This document shows positions 39,736-58,267 of a DNA stretch of 64,000 nucleotides, piece by piece (positions within the stretch are counted from its first letter, which is position 1; every line of letters begins with the position of its first letter). This stretch comes from Lentilactobacillus curieae (GTDB lineage Bacteria; Bacillota; Bacilli; Lactobacillales; Lactobacillaceae). Both the position numbers and the translations under genes were made by a program. The notes beneath the pieces are model-generated. The model made no database searches and was not told where the DNA came from. It worked only from the letters and a program-made list of their open reading frames with translations. The DNA lies in contig NZ_CP018906.1 of the NCBI RefSeq assembly GCF_000785105.2, positions 496,001 through 560,000 on the forward strand. Reading direction: 5' to 3'.

Positions 39736-42357
39736 CTAATTACTCAATGAATAAGTTCCAGAACCTAATTCGGTCTTAGTATAGTCCGTTCCATTTGCCT
39801 TTGGTAACATTACCGTTGCCTTAGTATTTGCGGGAACAGTTACCTTAGCCGTAAGCTTATCTCCACTCATTTGGTAACTGACCTCAATTGTTCCTGATGC
39901 AGTCGGAACTTTGATTGCAGCACTATTAACATTTCCTGGTTGAACTTTAACATCAAAGGTCTTGTATCCAGGAGCAGTTGGTTTAAGTCCAAACATTCCT
40001 TGAATCAATTGAGTTGCTGGAGCAGATCCCCAAGGATGAGAGAACGTCATGTTAGGCTTCAATGATGGGTCCCATGCCTCAGGAGTAATTGTTGAGTGCA
40101 AGTTATCAATAACGTGCAACCAGCTCCTAATGTCAGTCGAATTCAACAATTTAGTTGCTTGTTGTGAATCGTTACCATTATAAAGTCCTTGAAGAACGAA
40201 GTATGCTCCGTAAATACTGGTATGGAATCCATCTCCACGAGCATCAATCTTCTGAGTTAAATTCTTAGCCATTTCAGGGGTGTCATAAACTCCCATTGCT
40301 AGTGGGAATGCTTGGGCATGTTCAGAAGCGTGGTCAGTTGCTTCTGAATCTTTAAACTGTCCTTTTTTGCTGTCATAAAGATTTTTGATCATCCCTGATT
40401 TTACATTGTCCGCGTACTTAGTAAATGCGGCTTTATCACTTTGATTACCAACCGCGTCAGCAATCTTGGACATATCTCTATATGCACCATATGCCAAGGC
40501 ATTTAAAACAGTATCATATTTACCAAATGTATAGTCATCACGCTCGGATTGTGGCCAATCGACTAGCACAGCATTCATAGTGCTTGATGACGTGTTTTCA
40601 TCTCTAACTAATCCGTTCGCATCGATATCATGTGTAAATAAGTCGTTACGACTAGCCTTTAACGCATCATATTCCTTTAATAATAAGGTCTTATCACCAG
40701 TATATAAATATTCATTCCAAGCATTCATGACTGAGAAGAAGCCATATTCTGCTGGCCAAGTCGGATTACTAATGCCCCACTCAGTACTAAAAGCTGATAA
40801 TGCGTAGTTATTATCTACCGAGTATGAAGATAGTGAGTTGATCAATGTATCTCCCTCATAAACCCCACGTTCACGGGATTGAGAATCAACCATCAAATCT
40901 TGGTTAGTAGCTTTAATTGAGTACTTGGATAATTCATATTCCTTATTCATTGCACTATCTGAAGATTTAAAGTTCGATGCTTCATCATTAAATTCTTGTT
41001 GAAGGGCTAGTCCTTCAACATTGTTTGTCTTCAAATCTGCTGGTAAATTAGAAATTTCTACATACCTATAAGTTAGCAAATCAGTATTTTCAACCGTCTG
41101 CTTACCTTTAAGGAAGCTCCAAAACTCACCATAATTATTGGTAGTCCGCATTCTCCATTTGACTGAGTTACCATCAAGTTCCTCACCATATCTAATTTCA
41201 GCAGTTCTATCTGATTTAACATTTAAATTGCTTAATCCAAAACTACCGACAATCTCTTTACCCATATCAATCAGATAGTGGCCATTAGCTAATTTCTTAA
41301 TTGATTGAGGACGAACAACCTTACGTTGAACATTATCTACTGGGTAGCTTTCAAGCTGTTGATCACTTGATACTAAATAATTACCGTGGCTTGTTGGCGT
41401 CTTCCATCCCTTATTAGAAGTGTTTTTAGGGTTAGTCCAATTGTTAGGGAAATATTTTTGATTAATATTTTGAGGTGCTGCTTTGAAGTAAAAAGTTCCT
41501 AAATTATCCTTGCCATTATCACCAAACGCTTTGGTTCCATCGTAAACTTGCCATCCAGAATTTTTCACCCCACTATTAGTCATTATTTTTTTAGTTCCAT
41601 CTTTATAGTAGACCGTCATTTGGGCTAAGAAACCAGAATCCAATAACGAATAATTCAGTGCTCCAATAACATTCTTACCCTTACGCAGATTATTAGTGAT
41701 GTCATAGTTATTGTAATAGTAAGTATTGCCATTATTTCTAGCTGGACCTTCACCGACAAATTTTCCGTTCACGTAAAACGAATCAACGAATTGGCGGGTT
41801 TCTTGATTGTTTTTGGCTGCAACACTAACCACAGCTTTCTCAATCTTTTCTGGATTGTTGATATTCAATCGTTTTCTTGCAAACACAAAGTTCGCGTCCA
41901 CTCCAGAATTATTTTTTAGTGACCAGATTGAGTTTTTACTCTGCCAGTCGGTTTTAGTGGTAAAACTTTGCTTATTTGATGGTCCACTGGTATTCCCATG
42001 ATTATCTTTAACCTGAACTGTCCAACTGTATAAATCATTGTCTTTAAGTTGGCTAACTTGGGCAACATGAACTCCTGTAGAATTATCTGACTGGGTCCAT
42101 CCAGTTTCCACAACAGGGGAATTTGAACCTTCATGGTAAATACTAATTTTGTAGGCAGTCTGTTTACTGTTGTTTTGGTTATCGGTCATCGCCCAAGAAA
42201 ACGTTGGTTCTTTTGATTGATCAACTCCCAATGGTTTGTTCATTAAATTAATCTTTTGATTAGTCACATTAACTTTATTTTCGCTAGCTAGCAACGTTAG
42301 TGAGCCAAAGGTCAACGCAATTGCAAACGATAATACTGCTAAATACATCTTCTTCAT
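39736..42357 (-). CDS. Secreted GH78-family alpha-L-rhamnosidase
   Basis: An 873-residue exported enzyme. A signal peptide (MKKMYLAVLSFAIALTFG, cleavage near LLAS) is followed by N-terminal beta-sandwich domains (40-350), an (alpha/alpha)6 catalytic barrel (about 460-780) and a C-terminal beta-sandwich. The general-acid region reads DSQSRERGVYEGD (490-503), and a second acidic site is expected in the HTSIYGAYFVLQGL part. SHPWGSAPA is typical of GH78. No LPXTG anchor is seen. The start at 42357 was chosen for AGGAAGGA; the longer frame has no signal sequence. It removes terminal alpha-rhamnose; in arabinogalactans rhamnose caps glucuronic acid. A cre-like site precedes it. Confidence 0.85.
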   Translation of the reverse strand: MKKMYLAVLSFAIALTFGSLTLLASENKVNVTNQKINLMNKPLGVDQSKEPTFSWAMTDNQNNSKQTAYKISIYHEGSNSPVVETGWTQSDNSTGVHVAQVSQLKDNDLYSWTVQVKDNHGNTSGPSNKQSFTTKTDWQSKNSIWSLKNNSGVDANFVFARKRLNINNPEKIEKAVVSVAAKNNQETRQFVDSFYVNGKFVGEGPARNNGNTYYYNNYDITNNLRKGKNVIGALNYSLLDSGFLAQMTVYYKDGTKKIMTNSGVKNSGWQVYDGTKAFGDNGKDNLGTFYFKAAPQNINQKYFPNNWTNPKNTSNKGWKTPTSHGNYLVSSDQQLESYPVDNVQRKVVRPQSIKKLANGHYLIDMGKEIVGSFGLSNLNVKSDRTAEIRYGEELDGNSVKWRMRTTNNYGEFWSFLKGKQTVENTDLLTYRYVEISNLPADLKTNNVEGLALQQEFNDEASNFKSSDSAMNKEYELSKYSIKATNQDLMVDSQSRERGVYEGDTLINSLSSYSVDNNYALSAFSTEWGISNPTWPAEYGFFSVMNAWNEYLYTGDKTLLLKEYDALKASRNDLFTHDIDANGLVRDENTSSSTMNAVLVDWPQSERDDYTFGKYDTVLNALAYGAYRDMSKIADAVGNQSDKAAFTKYADNVKSGMIKNLYDSKKGQFKDSEATDHASEHAQAFPLAMGVYDTPEMAKNLTQKIDARGDGFHTSIYGAYFVLQGLYNGNDSQQATKLLNSTDIRSWLHVIDNLHSTITPEAWDPSLKPNMTFSHPWGSAPATQLIQGMFGLKPTAPGYKTFDVKVQPGNVNSAAIKVPTASGTIEVSYQMSGDKLTAKVTVPANTKATVMLPKANGTDYTKTELGSGTYSLSN

Positions 42358-42374
42358 TTGTTTAGTGTCCTTCC

Positions 42375-42443: not shown

Positions 42444-42806
42444 TTACTTTTCAATCGCCTTTCCGAGTTCATTTAATAACTCTACCCACGACTTCTTACC
42501 TTGGTACTTAATATCCATACTGGCAACAAACTGAGTAAGAATATCTTGAGTTGGTTGTGAATACTGACCCTTCACATCTTTTAATGCTTCATTAATTCTT
42601 AAGTCTTCCCATTGCATGTAGGTCTGGCTTTCCCACTCGGTGCCGTTATACACCAAGGCAAATGTTTCTTGATTAACTAGATTACTAAGATTAGCGTTAT
42701 CACTCAGTCCAATTTCCGTTAAGTCAAGGTTTGAAAAATCATCGCTCTTTGAGACATTAAACATGTTCTGGTCTGGTTGGTTGTATACAATAATTGAATC
42801 TGCCAA
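42444..42806 (-). CDS. Small unknown protein in the glycosidase operon
   Basis: A 120-residue soluble acidic protein with no signal peptide and no recognised domain. The N-terminal half is Asn/Asp/Ser-rich (QPDQNMFNVSKSDDFSNLDL), followed by WESQTYMQWEDLRINEAL and a C-terminal helix KSWVELLNELGKAIEK. It lies 32 bases after the GH59 gene and so is probably cotranscribed. Its role, perhaps as a subunit or chaperone of a neighbouring glycosidase, is unknown. Confidence 0.6.
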   Translation of the reverse strand: MADSIIVYNQPDQNMFNVSKSDDFSNLDLTEIGLSDNANLSNLVNQETFALVYNGTEWESQTYMQWEDLRINEALKDVKGQYSQPTQDILTQFVASMDIKYQGKKSWVELLNELGKAIEK

Positions 42807-42838: not shown

Positions 42839-45382
42839 TTATTTTCTTAAATCATCACTAATATCCACTGCATCCAGGGTAAACTTGCCCTTTGTTACCA
42901 CCACCCTAACTTCATGGTGACCATATGGTAGGTCATGGATAATCAGCACTTCTGACTTATCAGCACCCTTTTGGCTGGCAACACTCGGTAAAACAACCCG
43001 TCCATCAATGAACACCTTTAAATATGATCTGCGGTTTTGCTTTCCAATTAGTGAAAAGCCAGTTCCGTCAAATTCGAATTTGAAGTTATTCTCACCATCG
43101 CCCTGAGCTGAAGACAAAGAACGATTCCAGATGGTGTTTCCAAGGCCACAAACGTGATTCCAGTTTCCGCCGTAAATAATCTGATCATCTAAGTCATCTA
43201 GGCGAGTCTTAGTGACCGTGACACCGCCAGAGATACTTATAACAGTGATTTTATGAATTTTAGTATTGTAAAAACCAGTTCCAATCTTAATTCGACCACT
43301 GTAGTGAATATTTTCGTCATCAACGTACTTAAATAGCACTTTATCGTCTACTTTTGAATACAGAATCCCGTCAACAATCGTAAACTCAACGATATGATGA
43401 GCATCTAAATCCAAACCATCCACGTAACCTAAATTAACAACTTGATCATCCTTAAGTAGTTGATAAGACCCGTCAGTATAAAGCTTGAATACATAAGGGG
43501 CACTTTCCAATCTCCCCTTGACATCAGTCATTTCGTACAGACCAATCCCGATGTAGTTACCATAAGCAGTGTTTTGAATTGTCTGGTTATCAAACTGGAA
43601 GTCCAACTTGACACTGTAATCTGTCCAGTGGTCATCCCCCAAAGTAAAGTTAGGGGCGTATGAGTATTCCCAGTCTAATGCTCGTTCCTTTTCGGTAATC
43701 ATTTGCTGCAGAACGTTTCCTTCTGGGGTCTGAACGACTTCAAAAGCACCGCCCTGGTCGGTAGTAAACCTTGGAGTCCCTCCTCGGCGGCTTAGATAGT
43801 CAGCAGGATAATCTGAATAACTAAAGTCATCAGAGTACAACAAATTTGTTCGTACATCTTGGACTAAGACCTTCTCATCTTTACCAGAAGTAATTCGTTG
43901 ATACTTAACTTCATTATCGTCAGCTAATTTTAACGTCGTGGCAGTCACAATACTATGAGCTGGTACGAACACCTTAACTACATCTGCAAAATCAATCGTC
44001 TCTCGTAGCCGCTTTAGATTAGCATCATAATCTTCTTCTGCACTCTTAGGTCCCTGGCTTTCCCAAACATCTAAATCTTTTTCCGGAATATTTTTTAGTG
44101 AGATTTCGTACTCACGGCCAGCAGGACCGTCATTAACAAAAATCACCGAATAATCTTGCTTGTCTGGAGACATTAGGGTTAAGTAACTTGGCTTGAAGGT
44201 ATCTTCGGTCAGATTTTCCGTTCCGCCAACTTGGCTATCAGAAGCACTAGTTAGAATCCGCCAAGCGCCGCAATCTTCCCAGCCGGTTTTGGCAAAGTCA
44301 GTAAAGTGCTTGATAATTTGAAGTCCAACGTTGTCTACATCAAACTCTCCTGACCATGGACGGCTGGCAGAAATTAGCTCTTTGTGACTGTAGTTAACCC
44401 CTGGATAATAGGCCGAAACGGCAGGTTGGAACAGATACAAACTACGCCGCGACTTTACGTAACTTTTGATTACTCGGTTGGCAACATCCAGCCCTGACTG
44501 CTTGCCACCGATTCCATCACCGTTACTTGCTTTGACTCGATACTTGCCAAAGGTCATTGGCGCAATTCCTTCGCTATACCAAACTTCCTTATGATACTCA
44601 TCAGCAAGTTTCGTAAACGAGTTATCTGGACTGTCGTCAGTATTATAGTGGAAACCAGCAGCAGTTACTTTATCTCTGAGTTCTGCATCCGCTACCATAG
44701 CATCCCCAAAGTCAGTCTCGTAGTTCTGATCGGCAGCGATAATTTTAATCGCATGATATTCATCCACCGGAAAACCATTGGGAAAATCTATGTCACTCTT
44801 AATTCGGTCTGCAAACCACTTTGTCCACTTATACATTGGGTGCTTATTTTCATTACGATCTGGATTCACATAGTCAAACACAAACCCGTAAGTTTCATAA
44901 GCCGCAACAATTGTTTTCTTGTAATATTGGTACATTGGTTCATAAGCAGACTCAGGTACTCGGTTGTCGTGATCCGAACTCTTAACCTCTGTCCAAAACG
45001 GCCTTAAAAATCCTGGTTCACCCCAGCGTAATAAGGCTGTTTTGATATCAGGTTGGATTCGTTTTACATCAGCAATTAGCTGATAGCCTGCCCCACGTTT
45101 AACATTCGCTTCACCATCAATGGATCTAACTGGAGCTGGTTCTGTACCAGACGAGGTATTAGCATCGTCACCCAGTTCTACTTTGAGCATTCGCATTACT
45201 GGGTGCTTACCACCAAATAAGGTAGCTAGAATTTGTTGATAACTTTCTGGATGTTCATATTTGTAGTCCATCAACAATCTTGATGAATTGTTACAGTTGA
45301 TGTAGCCAAATCCCTTAAAGGTATTAGCATCCGAGGTTGTTAACAACTCGCTTGCATCAATCGTAAAACTGGTACTATTCAA
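42839..45382 (-). CDS. GH59-like beta-galactosidase (galactocerebrosidase family)
   Basis: An 847-residue cytoplasmic protein without signal peptide. The N-terminal TIM barrel resembles galactocerebrosidase: SSRLLMDY, MRMLKVELGDDANTSSGTEP, a putative acid/base E178 in NPDRNENKHP and a putative nucleophile E271 in VWYSEG. A beta-sandwich follows, then a lectin-like C-terminal domain starting LLYSDDFSYSDYPADY. In animals the family removes galactose from galactosylceramide; bacterial members are little studied. Between rhamnosidase and glucuronidase genes, a beta-galactosyl bond of arabinogalactan is a more sensible target. The family is assigned from motifs recalled by eye. Confidence 0.75.
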   Translation of the reverse strand: MNSTSFTIDASELLTTSDANTFKGFGYINCNNSSRLLMDYKYEHPESYQQILATLFGGKHPVMRMLKVELGDDANTSSGTEPAPVRSIDGEANVKRGAGYQLIADVKRIQPDIKTALLRWGEPGFLRPFWTEVKSSDHDNRVPESAYEPMYQYYKKTIVAAYETYGFVFDYVNPDRNENKHPMYKWTKWFADRIKSDIDFPNGFPVDEYHAIKIIAADQNYETDFGDAMVADAELRDKVTAAGFHYNTDDSPDNSFTKLADEYHKEVWYSEGIAPMTFGKYRVKASNGDGIGGKQSGLDVANRVIKSYVKSRRSLYLFQPAVSAYYPGVNYSHKELISASRPWSGEFDVDNVGLQIIKHFTDFAKTGWEDCGAWRILTSASDSQVGGTENLTEDTFKPSYLTLMSPDKQDYSVIFVNDGPAGREYEISLKNIPEKDLDVWESQGPKSAEEDYDANLKRLRETIDFADVVKVFVPAHSIVTATTLKLADDNEVKYQRITSGKDEKVLVQDVRTNLLYSDDFSYSDYPADYLSRRGGTPRFTTDQGGAFEVVQTPEGNVLQQMITEKERALDWEYSYAPNFTLGDDHWTDYSVKLDFQFDNQTIQNTAYGNYIGIGLYEMTDVKGRLESAPYVFKLYTDGSYQLLKDDQVVNLGYVDGLDLDAHHIVEFTIVDGILYSKVDDKVLFKYVDDENIHYSGRIKIGTGFYNTKIHKITVISISGGVTVTKTRLDDLDDQIIYGGNWNHVCGLGNTIWNRSLSSAQGDGENNFKFEFDGTGFSLIGKQNRRSYLKVFIDGRVVLPSVASQKGADKSEVLIIHDLPYGHHEVRVVVTKGKFTLDAVDISDDLRK

Positions 45383-45415: not shown

Positions 45416-47209
45416 TTAGTCGCCTAGTTTTTCCCAACGCTTCTTTAAGAAGAAAGCTGCTGCTTTTGGCTGGCGATCTCTTGTAAAGATACCCTTCTTG
45501 TTACCGTTCACCCGCATATTTCCTTCAACAGTTTGGAAATCAGCGAAGTTCCAAACTTGTTCACCACGAATGAAGTCATATGAATCAAACACTCGGCCAA
45601 ACATTTCTAGAACTTCAACTTGATACTCTTCACTCCACATGATTGAAGGCAATTTATGAAGTCCTGGTTCAGTATCAGCACCGTATTCCGTGTATACTAG
45701 TGGCTTATCAATATCTGAATTCTTCCACTGATCCATCTCACGTCTTAATCCAGCTTCACCATCTGAGATTTCAAATCCCCACTTGTGATACCAACCTGGA
45801 TAACGGTTAAGAAGGTATAGGTCTGGGAATTGCTTACATTTTGATGCTTCGTAAGTATCATCTTCACTAAGAGTGAATGTCCGACCACGGTGTTGTGGGT
45901 CTAAGTCTTTAGTTTCTTCAAAGACTTTGGCAAAGTATGGCACGGCTGAATCAGTTACAGTATCAGGTTCGTTAAACAAGCTCCAAGCAAATACTGATGG
46001 ATGGTTCTTGTCACGTAAAATCATATCGTGAATTTGTTCCAAATGCTTCTTTTGCAATTCTTCAGTCCAATCACCATCAAAGAATGATGCGTTCAATCCA
46101 CCTAAGAAACTAGCGGCTGCCATCTTAAATCCAACCGCAGGAACTTCATCAATCACTAAGAATCCTTCACGGTCAGCAAAGCGGTATGCTTCTTCATCAT
46201 ATGGGTAATGTGAAGTTCTAAATGAGTTAGCATCAGTCCACTTCATCAACTCAACGTCTTTTCTTTCAACGTTAAGATCAAATGCACGGCCAGAGAAAAT
46301 ACTATCCTCGTGGCGGCCAAATCCTTTAAGGTATACAGATTTACCATTAACTAAAATCTCGTGGCCTTTGATTTCGATTGTTCGAATTCCAATTTCATCA
46401 GAATATTCATCCACAATTTGATCACCATCGACTAGCTGAATTTTGATTGTGTACAAATATGCGTCTCTAACATTCCATAACTTAGGATTAGTAACTTCTA
46501 AGCTACCAGATTTACCAGTGGCAGTTGCTACTTCATTGCCCTCTTCATCAGCTAGACTAACCTTAACGTCTGCATCACCAGTAATTTCTACTGAATAATT
46601 GACTTTAGCTGAATTATTACCTAGTTCAAATGTAGTTGAGTAGTCACTAACAGCTACCTTTGGAGTTGCAATTAAGTGAACACTTCTGTTCAAACCTGAG
46701 TAATTATAAAAGTCAAAAAATGGTTTTACCATCTTCTTACCATTTTCAAGGGTGATCGTATCCCCTGCAGGAAGAGCATCGCGATGTAATTCATTGTTGA
46801 TTTTAATCGAAACAACGTTATCTGCACCAAACTTTGCTGCAGACGTAATATCAGCGGTGAATGGTAGAAAGCCACCTTCATGACTACGAATTTCTTGGCC
46901 GTTAACATAAACAGTTGCCCGGTGGGTTGCAGCACCAAACCGAATCCCAACTTGTTTGTCAGCTAGGTCACTTGGAATGAAAAATTTGGTTGAATACCAA
47001 AAGTCTCCAGCATATTCACGAGATTCCTTATCAGTAAAAAAGTCATTAAAACTGGCAGGAACCGGCATCTTGGTGCCATCGTGAAATCCCTTAGTCCAAT
47101 CTTCTTGATTACCGACCTGTTTTGGATCAAACTTGAAGTTCCAAAGACCATCAAGCTTGCGGTCGTAGCGATATTCATTTAATTCTGGGTAAAGTAAACT
47201 TGTTTCCAT
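45416..47209 (-). CDS. uidA: GH2 beta-glucuronidase
   Basis: A 597-residue GH2 enzyme with the sugar-binding domain (1-180), immunoglobulin-like domain (180-275) and TIM barrel. The acid/base glutamate is in WSLFNEPDT (about 407) and the nucleophile in VYTEYGADT (about 500). The carboxylate-recognising NxK motif in NGNKKGIFT marks true glucuronidases. The loop after GFKM is short, as in mini-loop-1 types that accept larger substrates. There is no signal peptide, so it acts on imported oligosaccharides. The ATG at 47209 follows GGAGG by 10 bases; a TTG at 47227 overlaps that RBS. It releases glucuronate for UxaC. Confidence 0.93.
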   Translation of the reverse strand: METSLLYPELNEYRYDRKLDGLWNFKFDPKQVGNQEDWTKGFHDGTKMPVPASFNDFFTDKESREYAGDFWYSTKFFIPSDLADKQVGIRFGAATHRATVYVNGQEIRSHEGGFLPFTADITSAAKFGADNVVSIKINNELHRDALPAGDTITLENGKKMVKPFFDFYNYSGLNRSVHLIATPKVAVSDYSTTFELGNNSAKVNYSVEITGDADVKVSLADEEGNEVATATGKSGSLEVTNPKLWNVRDAYLYTIKIQLVDGDQIVDEYSDEIGIRTIEIKGHEILVNGKSVYLKGFGRHEDSIFSGRAFDLNVERKDVELMKWTDANSFRTSHYPYDEEAYRFADREGFLVIDEVPAVGFKMAAASFLGGLNASFFDGDWTEELQKKHLEQIHDMILRDKNHPSVFAWSLFNEPDTVTDSAVPYFAKVFEETKDLDPQHRGRTFTLSEDDTYEASKCKQFPDLYLLNRYPGWYHKWGFEISDGEAGLRREMDQWKNSDIDKPLVYTEYGADTEPGLHKLPSIMWSEEYQVEVLEMFGRVFDSYDFIRGEQVWNFADFQTVEGNMRVNGNKKGIFTRDRQPKAAAFFLKKRWEKLGD

Positions 47210-47236
47210 AATTGTTGTATCCTCCAAATCAAATTA

Positions 47237-47250: not shown

Positions 47251-47341
47251 CTTTAACTTTTATTGTACTAGCAAAAAAGTCCCGGTCAATGTTTTTTAGT
47301 AAAAAAGAAGAACTTTTATCAAACTTACACATTATTTTACT

Positions 47342-47390: not shown

Positions 47391-48404
47391 TTATAAACTA
47401 CTACCTCGATACACAATTTCAGTAGCTAATGTATTTGTTTCTGGAATCTTTTTAGGGTTCTTAATTCGCTGTTGCAATAACTCAATTGCCCGCTCACCAA
47501 GTGCTTCGGTATGTGAATGTACCGTTGTCAACGGAGGAGTGGTGTACTTGGCAATTGCAACATCGTTGAAACTAATGATGCTAACGCGATCAGGAATTGG
47601 GATAGCATGATCATTCAATGCCCTAATCGCGCCAACTGCCATCGTATCACTAGCAACAATGAACCCATGTGGCAACTTATCACCTAAAGTATCAATCGCT
47701 TTGTTCATCAATTGATATCCGGAATCCGGGCCAAATTCACCGTTGAATACAAAATCAGCATTAAAAACTCCCTTAGCAGTTAGATAATCTTTATGCGTCT
47801 GCTGTCTAGGTTCGGGAACTAGATTCTTTTCAGTTACAGTAGTTTCTTGACCACTCAGCATTCCAATATCTCGAATTCCCTCTTCAAAGAAATGATCAAT
47901 AATTTGCTTAACTGGGGTAATGTAATCACTTCTTACACTATCAAATCCATACTGCAAAGTATCTTGACCAACAAACACAACTGGCTTTCCAGTATTTGCC
48001 AACTTATCAACCTCGGTTTTATCAAATTTCCCGATTGCCACAATTCCGTCAAAATCTGAAATCGTATCATTATCTAAGTTTTTTATTGAAAAGGTATCAG
48101 TTGTAGCACCAGTATTACTTGCTTTGTTTTCAATTCCGTACTGAATCTGTAGGTAATATAAATCAGTTAGTTCCTCTTGATTTGAGTGCCATTGAGCAAT
48201 TGCGATTTTTTGAGAAACAGGCTTATTCTTTTTTCTTGGCTTACGCTTATACTGGATTCGCTCGGCAACCTCGAACACTCGTTGTTTAGTGTCATTGGTA
48301 ACCGCTAAAGTATCATCGTAGTTTAGGATACGCGAGACGGTTGAGATTGAAACCCCCGCTTGTTCTGCTACATCTTTAATTGTTGGTCCCTTTTCTGAGC
48401 TCAT
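47391..48404 (-). CDS. LacI/GalR-family regulator of the glycosidase cluster
   Basis: A 337-residue LacI-type repressor. The HTH is at about 8-27 (TIKDVAEQAGVSISTVSRIL) and the ligand-binding domain has GFIVASDTMAVGAIRALND and SIISFNDVAIAKYTTPPLT. The start at 48404 follows ACGGGG by 7 bases. It lies between the DUF2264 gene and uidA on the same strand and is the natural candidate to sense a disaccharide product of the locus. Palindromes with an NNCGNN centre upstream of DUF2264, uidA, the rhamnosidase and the MFS gene may be its operators or cre sites. Confidence 0.87.
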   Translation of the reverse strand: MSSEKGPTIKDVAEQAGVSISTVSRILNYDDTLAVTNDTKQRVFEVAERIQYKRKPRKKNKPVSQKIAIAQWHSNQEELTDLYYLQIQYGIENKASNTGATTDTFSIKNLDNDTISDFDGIVAIGKFDKTEVDKLANTGKPVVFVGQDTLQYGFDSVRSDYITPVKQIIDHFFEEGIRDIGMLSGQETTVTEKNLVPEPRQQTHKDYLTAKGVFNADFVFNGEFGPDSGYQLMNKAIDTLGDKLPHGFIVASDTMAVGAIRALNDHAIPIPDRVSIISFNDVAIAKYTTPPLTTVHSHTEALGERAIELLQQRIKNPKKIPETNTLATEIVYRGSSL

Positions 48405-48494
48405 CCGCGCACCCCGTTTCAAATTTAAATCATTACGATTACTAAACTAGTTTAACAAATTATGCCAATTTTTCCTAAAAATACTGATAATTAA

Positions 48495-50408: not shown

Positions 50409-50655
50409 TGAAACCGATTACAAAAATAAGTATAAAATAGTTTTAGTAAAAATCAACAAAAATTCTAAACAATCTGCTCTTTAACATTTTTTTACTGTCC
50501 TTCACACATTCGTTGAAAAAAATGCGTTTCCTTTATATAACAAAGAAAACGGTTACGTCATGTGAATAAAATTTACTAAAATATAAAAAATATTACTAAA
50601 TTTCTTGTGTACTTTTGCCAGTTAATGATTATAATGGTGGATGTAAGCGCTTATA
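50409..50655. promoter_or_regulatory. Divergent control region of the DUF2264 and MFS genes with three cre/LacI-type sites
   Basis: TGAAACCGATTACA (50409-50422, 14 of 14 cre positions), AGAAAACGGTTACG (50544-50557, 12 of 14) and TGTAAGCGCTTATA (50642-50655, 13 of 14). The three sites over about 230 bp could allow DNA looping by a LacI-type protein or strong CcpA repression. No gene was seen in this 306-bp gap. Confidence 0.65.
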
Positions 50656-50690
50656 TATTCTCTTTTACTTTAAACAAAGGAGTAACAAAA

Positions 50691-51980
50691 ATGGCAGACA
50701 ATAAAGAAAAAAAGGTCGTCAAAACTGCGGTTGGTGAAATCACTAACGCAGTCATTAAAGATGAACAACAACCAAAATTACCATGGTTAGTATCATCTGC
50801 AATGTTTTTGGCACCATTATGTTGGTACGGACCTATTGGTTCTACTAGAAGTGTTTTAATTCCACAACTATTTGCACAAATTGATCCAGCAAACAAAGTT
50901 TGGGCCGTTGGTATCTTAGCAACGATTGCATCAATTACTGGTGCGGTCGCTAACTTGCTATTCGGTGCATTCTCAGATGTTACTAGAACTAAATTCGGTA
51001 AACGTAAGCCATACATAGTTGCTGGTACTGTGTTGGTGGCAATATCACTAATTATCATTGCTAACCTAACGTCGATTTGGGGAATTATAATTGTTTGGAT
51101 TGTCGCGGCGGCAGCTGAAAATGCGATTGCAGCTGCGATATACCCACAAATTTCTGATCGAGTTGCCCCTAAATGGCGTGGTACTGTTTCAACATTCTAT
51201 GGTGTTGGATTTACCATTGCCCAACAAGGTTTCGCTTTACTTGCCGCTCAATTCCTTGGCAATGTAAAAGTTGGTATCTATGTTATGGCTTCAATGACCG
51301 TTGTACTTGCAATCATTCATGTACTATTGATTAACGAACACAGTAACTTGTCAGAACCACGGGTTGCTTTTAATAAAGAATCATTGAAGAAGTACTTCTT
51401 CTTCCCAACCCATGATGCCCGTGATTTCTATCTTGCCTTAACTGGTAAGTTCTTCATGGTTGTTGGTTCAACAATCGTCACTACTTTCCAACTATTTATC
51501 TTTACAGATTACATCGGCCAAAGTACAAAATCAGCCGGTCAATCAATCTCTATTTTCTCAATGATCATGTTATTCATCGGTGTATTCTTTGCCTTAGTTG
51601 GTGGACCATTAGCTGATAAAATGAAGCGAGTTAAGGCACCAGTTGTTATTGCAACCTTCGCTCTTGGTGCAGCTGCCCTCTTCCCACTATTTATCCGTCA
51701 CCCATGGGCAATGTTTGTATACGCAATTATCGCTGCATTTGGTAATGGACTTTACAACTCAGTTGACGGTGCCCTTAACATGGACGTTTTGCCATCATCT
51801 GATACTGCCGGAAAAGATTTAGGTTTAATTAACTTGGCCAACACTTTAGGTCAAATGCTTGGTGCCATGGTTGCCTCAGCAATCGTTGAAGCCTTCGGTT
51901 ACCAATCAATCTTTATCTTCGCCGTTGCAATGGAAATCATTGGTGGTGCTGCTATCATGGCCATCAAACGTGTCCGGTAA
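50691..51980 (+). CDS. GPH-type MFS oligosaccharide transporter
   Basis: A 429-residue 12-helix transporter. The loop-2 motif GAFSDVTRTKFGKRKPYI is the GPH (glycoside-pentoside-hexuronide) signature and a second copy-like motif GGPLADKMKRVKAP follows TM8. GPH porters import glycosides with H+ or Na+. The ATG at 50691 follows AAAGGAG; the frame upstream is non-coding. First gene of an operon with a small unknown protein and GH43, divergent from DUF2264. It probably imports the oligosaccharide or disaccharide hydrolysed by the intracellular glycosidases. Confidence 0.85.
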   Translation: MADNKEKKVVKTAVGEITNAVIKDEQQPKLPWLVSSAMFLAPLCWYGPIGSTRSVLIPQLFAQIDPANKVWAVGILATIASITGAVANLLFGAFSDVTRTKFGKRKPYIVAGTVLVAISLIIIANLTSIWGIIIVWIVAAAAENAIAAAIYPQISDRVAPKWRGTVSTFYGVGFTIAQQGFALLAAQFLGNVKVGIYVMASMTVVLAIIHVLLINEHSNLSEPRVAFNKESLKKYFFFPTHDARDFYLALTGKFFMVVGSTIVTTFQLFIFTDYIGQSTKSAGQSISIFSMIMLFIGVFFALVGGPLADKMKRVKAPVVIATFALGAAALFPLFIRHPWAMFVYAIIAAFGNGLYNSVDGALNMDVLPSSDTAGKDLGLINLANTLGQMLGAMVASAIVEAFGYQSIFIFAVAMEIIGGAAIMAIKRVR

Positions 51981-52012: not shown

Positions 52013-52375
52013 ATGTCTGTAAACAATGAAGATTGGAAAGCTGCCTTACAGTCTAAGGAAGGCTTTGAAGAATTTATTACTAAATACTTTCATGAACACA
52101 AAGAGTTAACCGGTAACTATGATACTCCCAGTTACTACGAGTATTACACCGTAACTTTAGATAGCAAAAAGGGACTAGTTGTTACCCTTAAAACTGGTTT
52201 AAAACAATCAAATCCCCCACTACCATTCAAAGATATCGAGCACTTATCAATTGAAGAATTCCGCCAACTGATTTTAAACAAAAAGTTTGAGGATCAAAGC
52301 GAAACTCTGGGAGATGTCTTTTCAAAGATGTTGTCCGAAGAACCTAGTGCCCACATCAAAAAGAAGGACGAATAA
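52013..52375 (+). CDS. Small unknown protein between the transporter and GH43 genes
   Basis: A 120-residue soluble acidic protein, no signal peptide, not related to the other 120-residue protein at 42444. It is mostly helical by composition with a central beta-like stretch (YYEYYTVTLDSKKGLVVTLK) and a PPLPFKDIEHLSIEEFRQLI segment. ATG follows AAGAAGG. It begins 32 bases after the transporter gene and is followed by a hairpin, so it belongs to the transporter transcript. No function is recognised. Confidence 0.65.
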   Translation: MSVNNEDWKAALQSKEGFEEFITKYFHEHKELTGNYDTPSYYEYYTVTLDSKKGLVVTLKTGLKQSNPPLPFKDIEHLSIEEFRQLILNKKFEDQSETLGDVFSKMLSEEPSAHIKKKDE

Positions 52376-52445: not shown

Positions 52446-53348
52446 ATGAAAAAACACGGATATTATTTATTTACTTACTTTGCTGGCGAAAAATACGCTG
52501 ATGGTGAAAGCATATTCTTTGCCGTTAGCCGTGACGGCTTACACTGGCAAGACATAAACGATAATCACCCCATACTAACTTCAAACACTGGTACCCACGG
52601 GATACGTGATCCATTTATTATTAAAAACCCACGAACAAATCAGTACACAATTATCGGCACTGACTTAAAGATGCATGAAGCTGATAACTGGGGTGAAGTT
52701 CAGAGAATCGGTAGCCGCAGTCTACTTATCTCAAATTCTGATGATTTACTGAATTGGAGTGCCCCACAATTAATCGAAGTAGCTCCTGAAGGCTTCGGTT
52801 GTGTCTGGGCTCCAGAGGCAACCTATGACCCAGTAACTAATCAATTTTTAGTTTATTGGTCCTCAAAAACTAATGAAGATGACTATAAGAAGCAAAGAGT
52901 TTATTGCGCTACCACTCTAGACTTCACTAACTTTAGTTCACCAAAACTGATGATTGAAAAAGACCACAGCACAATTGATACCACCGTCATTCACTACAGA
53001 GATCACTATTATCGATTTAGTAAGGATGAAACTGATAAGCGGGTTTTTGCCGAACGTCTGAAACAATTGGCCTCTACCCCTCAACCAGTCACCTCTCCTG
53101 CACTAACTGCACTTTCAGGGGTTGAAGGACCAACTATATACAAATTAGTTGGCCAATCCAAGTGGGTTTTACTTCTAGATAATTATTCAAAATCAGGATA
53201 CTTTCCATTACTATCAAATAACCTTCCTAAGGGCGAATTTAAGCAACTACCAGAATCCGCATACCACATGCCTTCTCGCGCCCGCCATGGGACGGTAATC
53301 TCAATTACCCAAGAAGAGTACCAACGCATCAAAAATCACCAATTTTAA
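52446..53348 (+). CDS. GH43-like five-bladed beta-propeller glycosidase
   Basis: A 300-residue cytoplasmic protein of the GH43/GH32-like propeller clan. Visible motifs are IFFAVSRDGLHWQ, GIRDPFIIKN (the pKa-modulating aspartate), WAPEATYDP (probable acid glutamate) and GVEGPTIYK. The usual N-terminal aspartate base of GH43 is not evident, so catalytic competence or subfamily is uncertain. The family mostly removes arabinofuranose, xylose or galactose. With araB and araD nearby, arabinose release from an arabinogalactan side chain is plausible. The ATG at 52446 is chosen because the longer frame from 52287 runs over the preceding gene. Confidence 0.78.
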   Translation: MKKHGYYLFTYFAGEKYADGESIFFAVSRDGLHWQDINDNHPILTSNTGTHGIRDPFIIKNPRTNQYTIIGTDLKMHEADNWGEVQRIGSRSLLISNSDDLLNWSAPQLIEVAPEGFGCVWAPEATYDPVTNQFLVYWSSKTNEDDYKKQRVYCATTLDFTNFSSPKLMIEKDHSTIDTTVIHYRDHYYRFSKDETDKRVFAERLKQLASTPQPVTSPALTALSGVEGPTIYKLVGQSKWVLLLDNYSKSGYFPLLSNNLPKGEFKQLPESAYHMPSRARHGTVISITQEEYQRIKNHQF

Positions 53349-53406: not shown

Positions 53407-53428
53407 ATTAATCAATATATTGTTTAGA

Positions 53429-54511
53429 TTACTTATTCTTTTGGATTGATTCCCAAAGTCCATTTAGGTAAGTAATTCCTAGGGCTCTGTCGTACAAACC
53501 ATAACCAGGACGGCCATCTTCGTCCCAGATATTTCTACCATGGTCAGGACGGATGTAACCATCAAAACCACTATCATCCAATGCCTTCATGATTTCGTAC
53601 ATATCTAGTGAACCTTCGTCTGACAAGTGTGGAGCTTCATGGAACTTAGTCTTTTCAGCGTTAGTAAACTTGATGTTTCTAGCATGGATAAATGGTGCAC
53701 GGTCCTTGCCAACAAATTCTCGGATAATTGCAGGAAGGTCGTTCTTAGGGTTTTCGCCCAAACTACCAGTACAGATAGTGAAACCATTGTACTTAGATTC
53801 GTTTAATTCTTCAATGGCAACCATGTCATCACGGTTTTTGTAGATTCTTGGCAAACCAAATAGTGGGAATGGAGGATCATCTGGATGCATTGCCATTCTT
53901 ACGTCAGCTTCCTCACAAACAGGAATAATTTCGTCAAGGAAGTACTTAAGGTTTTCAGTTAACTTCTTAGCATCAACGCTCTTGTATTTTTCAAACAAGG
54001 CTTTAACTTCAGCAAGACGGTCTGGCTCCCATCCTGGCATTTCAAATCCTTTTGAGCCTTCTTTGATTCTTTCAATCATTTCATTAGGATCGTCAGGCAC
54101 CATAGTTGGATCATATGCCAAGGCATTTGAACCATCTTCAAGGGGTTCATGCAAATTAGTTCTCAACCAGTCGAATACGGGCATAAAGTTGTAACAAATT
54201 ACCTTAATTCCGTATTTTGAAAGGTTACGGATTGTTTGCTTGTAGTTTTCAATATATTTATCACGAGTTGGCAAACCAATCTTGATGTCATCGTGGATAT
54301 TAACAGATTCGATTACTTCAAGCTTAAGGCCAGCCGCTTCAACAGTTTCCTTCAAGTGAGCAATCTTTTCTTCTGGCCAAACTTCACCAACTGGAACATC
54401 GTACAGTGATGCCACAACCTGAGTAGTACCAGGAATTTGTCTAATTTGCTTTAACGTAATTGGGTCATCATCTTCGCCAAACCAGCGAAAGCCCATATCT
54501 AGCTTCTTCAT
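53429..54511 (-). CDS. uxuA: Mannonate dehydratase
   Basis: A 360-residue TIM-barrel enzyme that dehydrates D-mannonate to 2-keto-3-deoxygluconate. It opens with MGFRWFGEDDDPITLKQIRQ and has the metal-site stretch MAMHPDDPPFPLFGLPRI plus CTGSLGENPKND and IHARNIKF. It completes the uxaC-uxuB-uxuA-kdgK-kdgA route. It is divergent from the GntR regulator, with an operator just downstream of its -10 (54534-54547). Confidence 0.95.
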   Translation of the reverse strand: MKKLDMGFRWFGEDDDPITLKQIRQIPGTTQVVASLYDVPVGEVWPEEKIAHLKETVEAAGLKLEVIESVNIHDDIKIGLPTRDKYIENYKQTIRNLSKYGIKVICYNFMPVFDWLRTNLHEPLEDGSNALAYDPTMVPDDPNEMIERIKEGSKGFEMPGWEPDRLAEVKALFEKYKSVDAKKLTENLKYFLDEIIPVCEEADVRMAMHPDDPPFPLFGLPRIYKNRDDMVAIEELNESKYNGFTICTGSLGENPKNDLPAIIREFVGKDRAPFIHARNIKFTNAEKTKFHEAPHLSDEGSLDMYEIMKALDDSGFDGYIRPDHGRNIWDEDGRPGYGLYDRALGITYLNGLWESIQKNK

Positions 54512-54533
54512 CTTCTGCCTCCAAAATTTAAAT

Positions 54534-54775
54534 ACGAATATATTAGTATTCTAGTATATAGAAAACATTTTTGCAGCTAACTACGTCTTAAGTTATGGGC
54601 TTAATTTAAGCCCCAAATCTAATAGTTGATAACAAACGGCACTGATCAAACCCGCAAAGGAATTACGTTTGTCCATCCTATAAATAAAATTTGCTGGCTA
54701 CAAAAATTGTTCTTTATTTAATTAATATATTAGTATACTATATACATATGATAGCATCTTCTGTAACCGCTATCA
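54534..54775. promoter_or_regulatory. Divergent uxuA / GntR control region with two operators and a perfect cre
   Basis: Operator copies: ACTAATATATTCGT (54534-54547, minus strand) next to a uxuA -10 TATACT (54553-54560 region), and ACTAATATATTAAT (54721-54734, minus strand) overlapping TATACT (54734-54739) of the regulator. TGTAACCGCTATCA (54762-54775) matches all 14 cre positions. No gene is seen in the 342-bp gap. Confidence 0.75.
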
Positions 54776-54853
54776 ACACATATTTTTACTTTATTTAATA
54801 AGATTTATGATAAGATTTAAATGTTAATAATTTTCGACACAAAGGACAATATA

Positions 54854-55513
54854 ATGGAAAGTCTACAAGATCGTGCATACAGCACAATATACAATTCAAT
54901 AATTACCTTGGAACTAAAACCTGGGCAACGAGTTTCTGACCATGAGTTCGAAAAGCAGCTCGAAATGAGCCGCACCCCAATTAGAGAGGCCATGCTCCGT
55001 TTATCAAGAAACGGCCTACTTAACTCTGTTCCCCAAAGTGGAACTTTCGTTACCAGGATCAATATCAAGAAAGCCTTAGATGCTCGGTTTGCCCGCCAGA
55101 CTCTTGAGCGTAAAATTGTTAGTGAAATTACCGCCAACCACACCGAACAAAACATTGAAGACCTAGAATTTTTATTGCTTCAACAAAAAAGAGCAATTAG
55201 TCGAAATGAACTAAGAACATTTTTTGAAGCCGATGATGAATTTCATGCCTCGCTTTACAAATTCACAGATCACGGTAGTATTTGGGACTGGTTAATGAGT
55301 TTAAGCATCGACTTAAACCGATTCAGATATCTCCGTTTATTCGATACCAACTTATCCCCTACCCCATTGATTGATGCCCATGCACGTTTAATTGATGCCA
55401 TTAAAGGTGATAAGAAGGGCGATGCTGACAAAATCATTGAGGACCATTTGGATTTGCAATTGGTTGATAAAAACGATGTGATTAAGCAGTATCCTGACTA
55501 CTTTGAAGAATAA
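54854..55513 (+). CDS. GntR-family (FadR/FCD subfamily) regulator of glucuronate catabolism
   Basis: A 219-residue GntR-type repressor. The winged helix at 1-70 has LKPGQRVSDHEFEKQL and SRTPIREAMLRLSRNGLL. The FCD domain (90-215) has its metal/ligand residues in ADDEFHASLYKFTDH and AHARLIDAI plus EDHLDLQL. The start at 54854 was chosen for AAAGGA 7 bases upstream. It is divergent from uxuA. The five ACTAATATATTAAT sites before uxuA, itself, kdgA, kdgK and the sugar porter define its likely regulon; a pathway intermediate such as fructuronate, mannonate or KDG probably induces. Confidence 0.88.
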   Translation: MESLQDRAYSTIYNSIITLELKPGQRVSDHEFEKQLEMSRTPIREAMLRLSRNGLLNSVPQSGTFVTRINIKKALDARFARQTLERKIVSEITANHTEQNIEDLEFLLLQQKRAISRNELRTFFEADDEFHASLYKFTDHGSIWDWLMSLSIDLNRFRYLRLFDTNLSPTPLIDAHARLIDAIKGDKKGDADKIIEDHLDLQLVDKNDVIKQYPDYFEE

Positions 55514-55780: not shown

Positions 55781-55783
55781 TCC

Positions 55784-56512
55784 TTATTCATGCTCCGCAT
55801 GGCTCTTTGACTTCGCATTGTTTTGACCGTAATATGCGTTCGCACCATGCTTACGGTAGTAATGCTTGTCCAACAAGTATTGTGGTACGTGGATTTCATC
55901 TCTAGTCAATTGCAAACCATGGTATGCAATTTCAGCTGAAACTTCCAATACCTTTGCGTTGTAAACTGACTTGTCTGGTGTTGGTCCCCATGAGAATGGT
56001 CCGTGTTGGCTAACCAATACGGCTGGCACAGCATCTGGATCAATACCACGACGTTCAAATTCGTCAACGATAACCTTTCCAGTATTTAATTCGTATGCTT
56101 CTTCAATTTGTTCCTTAGTCAAAGCTGGAGCAGCTGGAATATCACCGTAGAAAGTATCTGCATGAGTAGTACTTACAGCAGGAATATCCATCTTAGCTGC
56201 AGCAAATGAAACACCCCAAGGTGAATGAGTATGAGTAATTCCACCAATGTTTGGGAAATGGTTGTATAGGTAAGTATGAGTTGGTGTATCTGAAGAAGGG
56301 TTCATGTCACCTTCAACAACTTTACCGTCCAAATCAACAACAACCATATCTTCTGGCTTCATATCATCGTATTCAACACCTGATGGTTTGATTACAAATA
56401 AACCTTTTTCACGGTCGATACCTGAAACGTTACCCCAAGTAAAGGTAACCAAATCAAGCTTTGGCAATTTCATGTTTGCTTCGTAGACTTCTTGTTTGAG
56501 CTTTTCTAGCAT
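55784..56512 (-). CDS. araD: L-ribulose-5-phosphate 4-epimerase
   Basis: A 242-residue class II aldolase-fold enzyme that makes D-xylulose 5-phosphate from L-ribulose 5-phosphate. It has TWGNVSGIDR, the substrate loop SSDTPTH, zinc ligands in THTHSPWG and AVLVSQHGPF, and the C-terminal HGANAYYGQ. It follows the kinase gene by about 145 bases. Its product enters the phosphoketolase or pentose phosphate route. Confidence 0.93.
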   Translation of the reverse strand: MLEKLKQEVYEANMKLPKLDLVTFTWGNVSGIDREKGLFVIKPSGVEYDDMKPEDMVVVDLDGKVVEGDMNPSSDTPTHTYLYNHFPNIGGITHTHSPWGVSFAAAKMDIPAVSTTHADTFYGDIPAAPALTKEQIEEAYELNTGKVIVDEFERRGIDPDAVPAVLVSQHGPFSWGPTPDKSVYNAKVLEVSAEIAYHGLQLTRDEIHVPQYLLDKHYYRKHGANAYYGQNNAKSKSHAEHE

Positions 56513-56656: not shown

Positions 56657-58267
56657 TTACTTAGTCATCTTCATTGACTTAACAGCTTCTTGTTCTGCAG
56701 GAAGAGCAGCCTTGTAGTTATCGATAAACTTATCGTAACCAGCAACACTTTCTGGTTCAGGTTCAAGAGTTGCACCAGTGGCATCCTTGAAGACGCGATT
56801 CTCAAGGTAATCTGCCAAGCTTTCGCCGTTCTTCTTGTTGCTTGCGTACAATGCAAGAATTGCCATACCCCATGGGCCACCTTCGCCGGCGTTGTCCATA
56901 ACAGTAATTGGAGTGTTAAGAGCGTCAGCCAAAACTTGTTGGGCAACGACTGGTGTCTTGAACACACCACCTTGAGCAATCAGTACGTTTGTCTTGATGT
57001 GTTCTTCTCTAAGAAGAATATCCATACCAATCTTCAATGGAGCAAATGCTGAGTACAATTGAGTCTTAATGAAGTTTGCTAGGTTCATCTTTGAATCTGG
57101 CTTTCTTACAAACATTGGGCGACCTTCAGGAACACGAGTAATGTTTTCACCTGAAAGGTAACTGAAGTTTACAAGGCCACCGGCATCTTGGTCACCCTTA
57201 ACTGATTCTGAGAATAAAGTTCCGTATAAATCGTTAGGTTTAACTTGGACACCAAGTGCACGAGCAAATTCACCAAACAATGATACCCAGGCATTGATAT
57301 CTGAAGAACCATTGTTAACGTGAACCATGGCAACTGGTGCTCCATCTGGAGTAGTAACCATATCAATATCGCGGTGAACTGCCTTCATTGGGCCATCAAG
57401 GACAACCATTGAGAATGCTGAAGTTCCGGCTGAAATGTTACCGGTACGAACCTTAACAGCGTTAGTTGATACCATACCAGTACCAGCATCACCTTCTGGA
57501 GGAGCGATTAATGATCCTGCTTCAAGTTGACCTGAAGCATCAAGTAATTTAGCACCTTCAGCGGTTAATTCACCAGCTTTTTCACCGGCTGGCAAGATTG
57601 CTGGTAATACGTCAGGAACGTTCCATGAACGGGCTTTGATTTCATCAAGGTCATTGAATTTATCAAGCATTTCTTGGTCGTATGACTTAGTTTCGTTATT
57701 AATTGGAAATACACCTGAGGCATCACCAACACCCAATACGTTTTGACCTGAAATCTTCCAAGTTACGTATCCTGCAAGTGTAGTGATGAAATCAATATCA
57801 TCGATGTGTGATTCGTTGTTAAGCACTGCTTGGTAAAGGTGAGCAATACTCCAACGTTCTGGAATGTTGAAATCAAATAACTTAGTCAGCTTTTCAGCAG
57901 CTTGACCAGTGATATTGTTTCTCCAAGTTCTAAATGGAACTATAAGTTCACCCTTTTTGTTGAATGGCATGTAACCGTGCATCATAGCACTTACACCAAT
58001 TGAGCCAATCTTCTTAAGATCAACGCCATATTCATCATGAACTTGTAATGCCATGTTGGCGTAACTAGTTTGAATTCCAGTCCAAACTTTATCGATTGAG
58101 TAAGTCCAGATACCGTTATCCAATTCGTTTTCCCAGATAAAATCACCTGAGGCAGCCGTTTCAAAGTCATCGGTAACTAAGACAGCTTTGATACGTGTAG
58201 AACCAAGTTCAATTCCAAGCGAGATGTTTCCGCTTACAATTTCATCTTTAATATGATTTTTGTCCAT
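56657..58267 (-). CDS. araB: L-ribulokinase-type FGGY carbohydrate kinase (lactobacillar AraB)
   Basis: A 536-residue FGGY kinase closely resembling the AraB of Lactobacillus plantarum. It has SLGIELGSTRIKAVLVTDD (phosphate 1), FRTWRNNITGQAA, HLYQAVLNNE, PPEGDAGTGMV, SAGTSAFSMVVL and AGEGGPWGMAILA. It should phosphorylate L-ribulose from arabinose. The ATG at 58267 follows GGAGG by 8 bases; a GTG at 58282 overlaps that RBS. A cre-like TGTAAGCGCTAAAC (58371-58384) lies upstream. No araA isomerase or AraR is in the window. Some database entries label this family xylulokinase. Confidence 0.87.
   Translation of the reverse strand: MDKNHIKDEIVSGNISLGIELGSTRIKAVLVTDDFETAASGDFIWENELDNGIWTYSIDKVWTGIQTSYANMALQVHDEYGVDLKKIGSIGVSAMMHGYMPFNKKGELIVPFRTWRNNITGQAAEKLTKLFDFNIPERWSIAHLYQAVLNNESHIDDIDFITTLAGYVTWKISGQNVLGVGDASGVFPINNETKSYDQEMLDKFNDLDEIKARSWNVPDVLPAILPAGEKAGELTAEGAKLLDASGQLEAGSLIAPPEGDAGTGMVSTNAVKVRTGNISAGTSAFSMVVLDGPMKAVHRDIDMVTTPDGAPVAMVHVNNGSSDINAWVSLFGEFARALGVQVKPNDLYGTLFSESVKGDQDAGGLVNFSYLSGENITRVPEGRPMFVRKPDSKMNLANFIKTQLYSAFAPLKIGMDILLREEHIKTNVLIAQGGVFKTPVVAQQVLADALNTPITVMDNAGEGGPWGMAILALYASNKKNGESLADYLENRVFKDATGATLEPEPESVAGYDKFIDNYKAALPAEQEAVKSMKMTK

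Follow-up and report, generated by a model that had tools for sequence, protein, structure and literature searches.

Introduction

Among described systems, the Bacteroides loci for plant arabinogalactan proteins (AGPs) come close to the one considered here; according to the available excerpts of the literature (GH145, GH105 and GH43_24, PMC8406133; BT_3677, PMC12269599), they combine removal of the rhamnose-glucuronate (Rha-GlcA) cap with side-chain trimming in one regulated set. Our subject is a gene cluster of Lentilactobacillus curieae, contained in a window of 64,000 bases (the whole stretch of DNA analysed, positions 496001-560000 of the single 2,095,860-bp contig of this 2.10-Mb genome), which would likewise join cap removal to trimming. 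In comparison with the excerpted Bacteroides loci, GH78 stands here for GH145, a GH2 beta-glucuronidase (GUS) plus GH59 for GH105 plus GH43_24, and an importer of the major facilitator superfamily (MFS) for SusC/D, and GH88/GH105 had no match in the genome. The Bifidobacterium gum-arabic clusters (GH39 GAfase/AAfase and GH43_22 BlArafA/BlArafE; PMC10688797, PMC11264647) have GH43_22 enzymes to which the GH43-like protein of the cluster may correspond, and GH39-like and GH127 genes are neighbours in related lactobacilli, whereas the lactobacillar core is GUS-GH59, which goes unmentioned in the available excerpts of those two papers. GH78 and GH115 also occur together in a Maribacter arabinogalactan polysaccharide utilisation locus (PUL; GH78, GH115, GH105, GH43_18), a set induced by arabinogalactan or galactose (PMC11036162, in excerpt); that organism is a marine member of the Bacteroidota, its locus has GH105, and the excerpt makes no mention of a GUS-GH59 core.

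Judged by its genes, the L. curieae cluster would be a glycan-utilisation locus of a known general type that differs in its gene set. An earlier note on this DNA had stated that no lactobacillar system of this type was known, and in agreement with this, our literature searches, in which subscription journals were mostly uncovered, gave none among the matches listed. We lean towards reading the cluster as a LacI-controlled module that scavenges acidic oligosaccharides from the side chains of plant type II arabinogalactans, of the gum arabic or AGP type. The families, the gene order, their conservation and an upstream motif are observed, and from these we infer the exact substrate, every catalytic activity and transport.

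Results

Protein families were assigned by profile searches with Pfam and curated NCBIfam/TIGR models, with bit scores read against the model cut-offs. The open reading frames (ORFs) of the earlier note were all found where it had placed them, and its assignments to GH78, GH59, GH2 beta-glucuronidase, DUF2264, LacI, UxuA and AraD were all matched by these searches. From strand and gaps, three short units can be drawn amid genes leading from glucuronate to pyruvate and araD: an MFS transporter, orf120b and a GH43-like gene on the plus strand from 50607; DUF2264 and lacI on the minus strand, followed by a terminator-like hairpin (47383-47347, minus strand; 17 pairs, from a consensus scan only); and GUS, GH59, orf120a and GH78, again on the minus strand. 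The promoter scan of the window was given no weight, since its 31 promoter-like sites were fewer than those of shuffled sequences (mean 45).

The GUS gene (45416..47227, minus strand) encodes a protein well above the cut-off of a curated beta-glucuronidase model (NF007538, 696 against 544 bits). The protein carries an N-x-K motif (NKK at 576), which is the carboxylate-binding motif of beta-glucuronidases, and its closest PDB chain is 6eca (988 bits), a beta-glucuronidase structure that we take to be from Lacticaseibacillus rhamnosus; as the closest solved relative of GUS, it represents a likeness at the level of the enzyme. The neighbouring GH59 gene (42839..45382, minus strand; PF02057, 253 bits) encodes a beta-galactosidase-type enzyme whose presumed catalytic glutamates, placed by motif, are kept in 16 of 17 (E178) and 17 of 17 (E271) alignment rows. 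The GH78 gene (39736..42357, minus strand), which probably starts at the ATG at 42357 with a signal peptide in an ORF that opens at 42411, matches the six-hairpin alpha-L-rhamnosidase domain PF17389 (112 bits), the C-terminal domain PF17390 (62 bits), PF05592 and PF25788; its scores lie far under the NCBIfam equivalog cut-offs, and the assignment is one of family level. Because GH78 alone has a clear hydrophobic N-terminus among the seven locus proteins checked, it is taken to be extracellular and the other examined proteins, GUS and GH59 included, intracellular. The GH43-like gene (52446..53348, plus strand; likely ATG start at 52446 in an ORF that opens at 52287) encodes a putative alpha-L-arabinofuranosidase (NF052546, 178 bits, below cut-off).

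The pairing of GUS with GH59 is the most widely shared trait. GH59 was matched in 23 of 150 genomes (L. curieae included), strongly (E < 1e-30) in 19, and in 19 regions from the 18 other genomes with a strong match, GUS lay within 3 kb of GH59 in 17. A second scan covered 30 GH59 loci from at least seven genera, many of which end at contig ends, so that the counts are lower bounds. This comparison of synteny across lactobacilli, suggested in the earlier note, placed the GUS-GH59 core within 3 kb in 28 of the 30 loci, with GUS at most 2.8 kb away from GH59 (in L080, the place of a partial GH59 match was used). A lacI gene (at least 45% identity) was found in 25, DUF2264 in 19, a transporter of the window type in 13 (82-88% relatives) and GH78 in 5; another GPH type occurs in addition to the window-type transporter or in its place, and 16 loci have one or the other. 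The two loci that lack GUS, of Lacticaseibacillus chiayiensis and L. zeae, have GH59, a transporter and a GH30 gene among uxu/kdg genes; in these two species, as in Agrilactobacillus fermenti, uxu and kdg genes are found in one stretch together with GH59 and the window-type transporter. The locus is not confined to the L. curieae strain and is present in at least seven genera.

A shared upstream motif points to common control by the LacI-family regulator (47391..48422, minus strand; PF00356/PF13377). The palindrome TTTASTAAA was first noticed in the window, where it occurs 8 times against a shuffle mean of 1.59 (8 was reached by 1 of 100 shuffles). Four of these sites fall within two stretches totalling 385 bases, namely two putative operators upstream of GUS (47295-47303 and 47336-47344) and two in the gap that separates DUF2264 from the transporter gene (50442-50450 and 50572-50580); the remaining four are attributed to chance. 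The motif was afterwards sought within 300 bases upstream of genes in the 30 loci. It was found before GUS at 30 sites in 9.2 kb (17 of the 28 genes having one or more), before the window-type transporter at 21 sites in 4.3 kb (10 of 13 genes), before DUF2264 at 7 sites in 6.3 kb (6 of 19), before lacI at 10 sites in 8.2 kb (10 of 25) and before GH59 at 6 sites in 9.6 kb (6 of 29); 198 other ORFs, taken as background, had 6 sites in 62.5 kb of upstream sequence. Eleven GUS genes are without it. Nine of them (L061-L067 and L073, of Levilactobacillus or near it, and L078, of Secundilactobacillus) have the transporter and DUF2264 genes ahead of them in the same orientation, and the motif stands at the transporter gene in L061, L063, L064, L067 and L078, the five of the nine displayed; the other two belong to Sporolactobacillus (L070) and Schleiferilactobacillus perolens (L072, with a site at 367 bases). 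In two Lentilactobacillus loci with DUF2264 apart from GUS (L113 and L115), the motif precedes uxuA, DUF2264 and a LacL-like gene, and in L114 it precedes DUF2264 and the LacL-like gene. The gene set is probably co-regulated, and binding of LacI to TTTASTAAA with consequent repression would be the simplest form of such control.

These two results bear on the view that the cluster serves a broad forager of glucuronides and arabinosides with no single target, in which GUS would accept small beta-glucuronides of any kind and the remaining genes would serve independent pentoside or galactoside functions. GUS is indeed close to 6eca, a type known on many glucuronides, and araD and the kinase next to it may be just the partners of a distant araA, whose surroundings have neither; the closeness of GUS to GH59 across 28 of 30 loci and at least seven genera, as well as the motif common to the upstream regions of GUS, DUF2264 and the transporter, nevertheless make this view improbable.

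The glucuronate genes stand on both sides of the three units. On one side lie uxaC, for glucuronate isomerase (32752..34170, minus strand; NF002794, 618 bits, cut-off 387), a probable uxuB, for fructuronate reductase/mannonate dehydrogenase by context (34188..35798, minus strand), kdgA, for 2-keto-3-deoxy-6-phosphogluconate aldolase (35889..36542, minus strand; PF01081, 142 bits), and a probable kdgK, for 2-keto-3-deoxygluconate kinase by context (36700..37725, plus strand; PfkB family, 104 bits). On the other side lie uxuA, for mannonate dehydratase (53429..54511, minus strand; PF03786, 536 bits; NF003027, 481 bits, above cut-off), and a GntR/FCD regulator that is UxuR-like by context (54821..55513, plus strand; PF00392/PF07729). 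Of the five genes from glucuronate to pyruvate that the earlier note had reported, four (32752-37725) lie outside the interval it gave for the locus, and only uxuA lies inside. UxuA and UxuB-type genes mean glucuronate, and not galacturonate, as the substrate. AT-rich palindromes, TATATTAATATA-like repeats, are found upstream of kdgA/kdgK (36543-36699) and of uxuA/gntR (54512-54820), and possibly represent a UxuR-type site distinct from the LacI motif. In another genome of the genus (G018, contig C110, 146351-146947), uxuA matches in pieces with internal stops, and glucuronate use may be decaying there.

For arabinose, the window holds araD, for L-ribulose-5-phosphate 4-epimerase (55784..56512, minus strand; NF006047, 382 bits, cut-off 257), and an FGGY sugar kinase, possibly L-ribulokinase (56657..58282, minus strand; PF00370/PF02782). 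AraA had one match, outside the window at 1,040,790 of the same contig, about 0.5 Mb away; araBAD as one local operon is rejected, since AraA lies far off and, among ORFs of at least 180 amino acids, its 20-kb surroundings have neither araB nor araD. RhaA had no match in the L. curieae genome (other rhamnose routes were not searched); we therefore reject use of rhamnose as a carbon source through RhaA, and rhamnose is probably only a cap to be removed and left unused.

In the scheme that we favour, GH78 would take off the terminal rhamnose cap outside the cell, and the MFS transporter (50607..51980, plus strand; PF07690, 113 bits; PF13347, 45 bits, weakly GPH-like) would import the oligosaccharide that now ends in glucuronate (GlcA). 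Inside, GUS would free GlcA, GH59 the beta-galactose beneath it and the GH43-like enzyme arabinofuranose. GlcA would then pass through UxaC, UxuB, UxuA, KdgK and KdgA to pyruvate and glyceraldehyde-3-phosphate, and arabinose through the distant AraA, the FGGY kinase and AraD. The presence of GUS and GH59 together suggests GlcA over beta-galactose, and the Rha-GlcA-capped side chains of type II arabinogalactans described in the excerpted PMC8377490 and PMC8406133 appear to be the best fit to the enzyme set and its neighbours.

The same three enzyme families fit a second substrate one by one. Soyasaponin I carries Rha-Gal-GlcA on a triterpene, and GH78, a GH59-type galactosidase and GUS could strip this trisaccharide, with the glucuronate burned; the locus would then serve the use of saponins or flavonoid glycosides. 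This is unlikely in our view, as the companions in relatives are of polysaccharide type (GH115, secreted GH39-like proteins, GH127, LacLM-like proteins and large GH59s with FIVAR or DUF5776 repeats), the arabinose genes and the GH43-like enzyme would be superfluous for soyasaponin I, and no lactobacillar locus for such compounds is described among the literature matches listed. What holds of the arabinogalactan or gum-arabic substrate proposed in the earlier note is a conserved Rha/GlcA/Gal module beside glucuronate catabolism, whereas the exact substrate is read from gene content that the saponin would also fit.

The neighbours in relatives (GH115, GH39-like, GH127, GH43 and LacLM) suit arabinogalactan, which supports our reading at the level of gene content. 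A GH115 member is reportedly known on arabinogalactan (Aalbers 2015, cited in PMC11036162). The GH43_22 enzymes BlArafA and BlArafE and certain GH39 members are known on arabinogalactan (PMC11264647 and PMC10688797, respectively, both in excerpt). In the Lentilactobacillus loci L113 (2921-16700) and L115 (1708-15600), DUF2264 is accompanied not by GUS but by LacL-like, LacM-like, transporter, uxuA and GH115 genes. A secreted GH39-like gene adjoins DUF2264 or lies one gene from it in L042, L044 and L046; that of L042, the sole one run against Pfam, scored 31.5 bits against 26, with a sub-threshold CBM35 match. Large GH59 ORFs with DUF5776 or FIVAR repeats occur in L033 (9193-12555, 1121 amino acids) and L036 (1066-5640, 1525 amino acids); these proteins are probably surface-bound, a setting that we do not know for the GH59 family. 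Elsewhere in its genome, L. curieae has GH127 (L147) and GH115 (L153), and L148 holds GH51-type, second GH127-type, GH43 and GH27-type pieces; GH43 was matched at two places away from the window locus.

The presence of GH115 in the L. curieae genome and beside the modules of relatives also bears on glucuronoarabinoxylan as the substrate, from whose xylan GH115 would remove methylglucuronate and the GH43 enzyme arabinofuranose. We know of no role on this polymer for GH2 GUS, which acts on beta-linked GlcA, GH59 or GH78, and the GH115 gene is some 0.64 Mb away from the locus in the window; despite the closest curated GH43 model, BAD_1527, being active on arabinoxylan but inactive on larch arabinogalactan (PMC11264647, in excerpt), we regard this substrate as very unlikely. 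A glycosaminoglycan is rejected, as the scanned locus proteins include no lyase or hexosaminidase and a rhamnosidase would be out of place.

Five of the 30 loci, from three genera, have a GH78 gene no more than about 5 kb from GUS or GH59: A. composti and a near-identical metagenome-assembled genome, L. parafarraginis and two Schleiferilactobacillus. These five are 32-35% like the GH78 of the window and 48-93% like one another; the ten GH78s compared with that of the window, these five included, comprise nine in one further lineage (46-93% mutual identity) and one 61% relative of the window GH78 (L118). By these identities, two rhamnosidase lineages have joined such loci, and many independent recruitments are rejected, the ten others being one lineage of nine plus one window relative. 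In three of six GH78 regions fetched (L119-L121), a second-lineage GH78 lies within 6 kb of uxuB-uxaC.

The DUF2264 protein (48495..50384, minus strand; PF10022, 344 bits) belongs to the former GH154 family. As excerpted, PMC12269599 describes BcGDH, of Bacteroides caccae PUL25, as a dehydratase that makes Delta-4,5-unsaturated glucuronate (Delta-4,5-GlcA) for GH88, with reactions run to a plateau taken as equilibrium, and reports that BT_3677 is active on methyl glucuronide too; it proposes dehydratase activity for the entire former family, for which glucuronidase and galactosidase activities had previously been reported. The protein of the window had three PDB matches, 9o4u and 9nwf (glucuronate dehydratase) and 8oi4 (deposited as a beta-galactosidase). 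It keeps E63, R67, N164, W165, F168, Y216, R268, Y272 and Y337, among which Y216, R268 and Y272 correspond to the dehydratase residues Tyr229, Arg285 and Tyr289 of BcGDH. Nine of the ten residues mutated in BcGDH are identical not only here but in all rows of a 37-row alignment. The tenth, N176, is T163 in the window and T in 25 of 25 rows of the lactobacillar clade to which the protein belongs (support 100/98), and T in none of the 12 others; long branches of the tree are unsure, whereas the clade itself is close-knit. The lactobacillar protein further differs from BcGDH in an added C-terminal domain, DUF2264_C, and in that its GH88 partner was not found. Conserved dehydratase residues, together with the excerpted PMC12269599, weaken its reading as a beta-glucuronidase or GH154 hydrolase.

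GH88/GH105 (PF07470) was matched in 33 of 150 genomes, and L. curieae is not among them. Across 32 DUF2264 copies from 24 genomes, with six outside copies classed by score and place and not by the tree, a PF07470 match lies within 6 kb of 13 of the 17 copies outside the clade and of none of the 15 inside; the surroundings of some clade copies are cut off by contig ends (a contig of 9,995 bases in one case), and the genomes are related, so that a Fisher value would not be a proper probability. The split is not entirely clean, for a clade DUF2264 and a GH88-type gene are about 10 kb apart in both Agrilactobacillus composti (L077) and a close relative (L068). Some PF07470 match is present in six of the 15 genomes that carry a clade DUF2264, over the cut-off in G008, G010, G043 and G079 and under it in G009 and G013; those of G009, G010, G013 and one of G079 are weak, in frames of 710-740 amino acids, and that of G079 lies 11.5 kb from a clade copy. 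KduI, one enzyme used after GH88, was matched in 6 of 41 genomes, again without L. curieae (substitute isomerases were not searched). A classical dehydratase-GH88-KduI route is thus rejected for L. curieae, which had no match to GH88/GH105 or KduI, and for the same reason, the DUF2264 protein of L. curieae either has another role or makes a product that is consumed by some other route.

One such possibility, speculative and in our estimation rather doubtful, is that the clade DUF2264 is coupled to GUS and runs as a hydratase, converting Delta-4,5-GlcA caps left by the lyases of other microbes to a saturated uronate that GUS could remove. If so, the direction of one reversible reaction would be set by whichever hydrolase drains it, and the change of N176 to T would mark the switch. 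A close alternative, equally hypothetical, is a new unsaturated-uronyl hydrolase among the locus enzymes. Among the literature matches listed, the word DUF2264 was found in no paper and "glucuronic acid dehydratase" in PMC12269599 only, itself available in excerpt; GH154 is named six times in PMC13260240.

Other features of the window include a sugar-porter MFS transporter (38025..39434, plus strand; TIGR00879, 383 bits, cut-off 238), which has a 78% relative in L033 beside the surface GH59, GntR and GH115, and two orphan genes for proteins of 120 amino acids without a Pfam match at E 0.01, orf120a (42444..42806, minus strand) and orf120b (52013..52375, plus strand). Orphan families of about this size often adjoin GPH/MFS transporter genes; in the loci fetched, orf120b had 16 rows (13 distinct) and orf120a had 2. 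For orf120a, PHROG matches were at chance level only, and in Lacticaseibacillus zeae (L076), a 59% relative adjoins a GPH gene. AlphaFold models of the two proteins, built from 4 and 2 sequences (pLDDT 67.6 and 87.9), had no counterpart in the PDB at E <= 0.001; both are possibly transporter partners or regulators. At about 1.175-1.184 Mb of the L. curieae genome (L148:2852-12020), there is a second pentoside locus with an MFS transporter 49% like that of the window, GH51-type, GH127-type and GH43 genes and a paralogue of orf120b, 98 bases upstream of which stands a TTTASTAAA; the GH27-type gene of this locus is in two pieces and may be broken. A simple foreign island was rejected by the sole transfer test made, the G+C content being even across the window (0.37-0.43 per 2-kb step).

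Discussion

Several observations weigh against an arabinogalactan-scavenging module and have to be set beside the conserved core and its motif. To our knowledge, GH59 is a family of galactocerebrosidase-type beta-galactosidases and not of arabinogalactan enzymes, the literature matches listed include no paper on GH59 in that role, and the GH59 of L049 (9188-11752, Schleiferilactobacillus perolens type) has A at the presumed acid/base E178. The motif TTTASTAAA is upstream of none of the five GH78 genes in the 30 loci, and the window alone has GH78 next after GUS-GH59 in one orientation. Searches of the L. curieae genome gave no match to GH39 (no search was aimed at GH30 or GH16) and no backbone depolymerase among the families searched.

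Some of the individual assignments are also less firm than the earlier note had them. Its GPH transporter is an MFS protein that reaches 32 bits against the 231 of the GPH model TIGR00792; of its araBD, AraD stands, whereas the presumed AraB is an FGGY kinase under every named-kinase cut-off (104 against 380 bits for the XylB model and 47 against 428 for the ribulokinase model). The UxuB-like protein scores 128 bits against the 603 of the fructuronate reductase model. The GH43-like protein falls under the cut-offs of both Pfam (26.1 against 32.2) and the BAD_1527 model (178 against 500), and BAD_1527 itself, the best-fitting curated GH43 model, is inactive on larch arabinogalactan and acts on arabinoxylan (PMC11264647, in excerpt). 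The statement that each listed activity fits one bond fails for DUF2264, since members of the former GH154 are reported as beta-glucuronate dehydratases in the excerpted PMC12269599 and GH88/GH105 is unmatched; DUF2264 stands outside our scheme, as its studied relatives make Delta-4,5-GlcA and no known hydrolase for that product was found in the genome.

The unpaired dehydratase-type enzyme is the most interesting part of the locus, and it raises the specific question of what role a glucuronate dehydratase-type enzyme has in cells in which no known enzyme for its product was detected. The module as a whole offers a compact gene set that can be checked strain by strain, and it would provide a candidate genetic basis for lactobacilli feeding on acidic plant-gum side chains, a niche described, in the excerpted literature, in Bacteroides and bifidobacteria.

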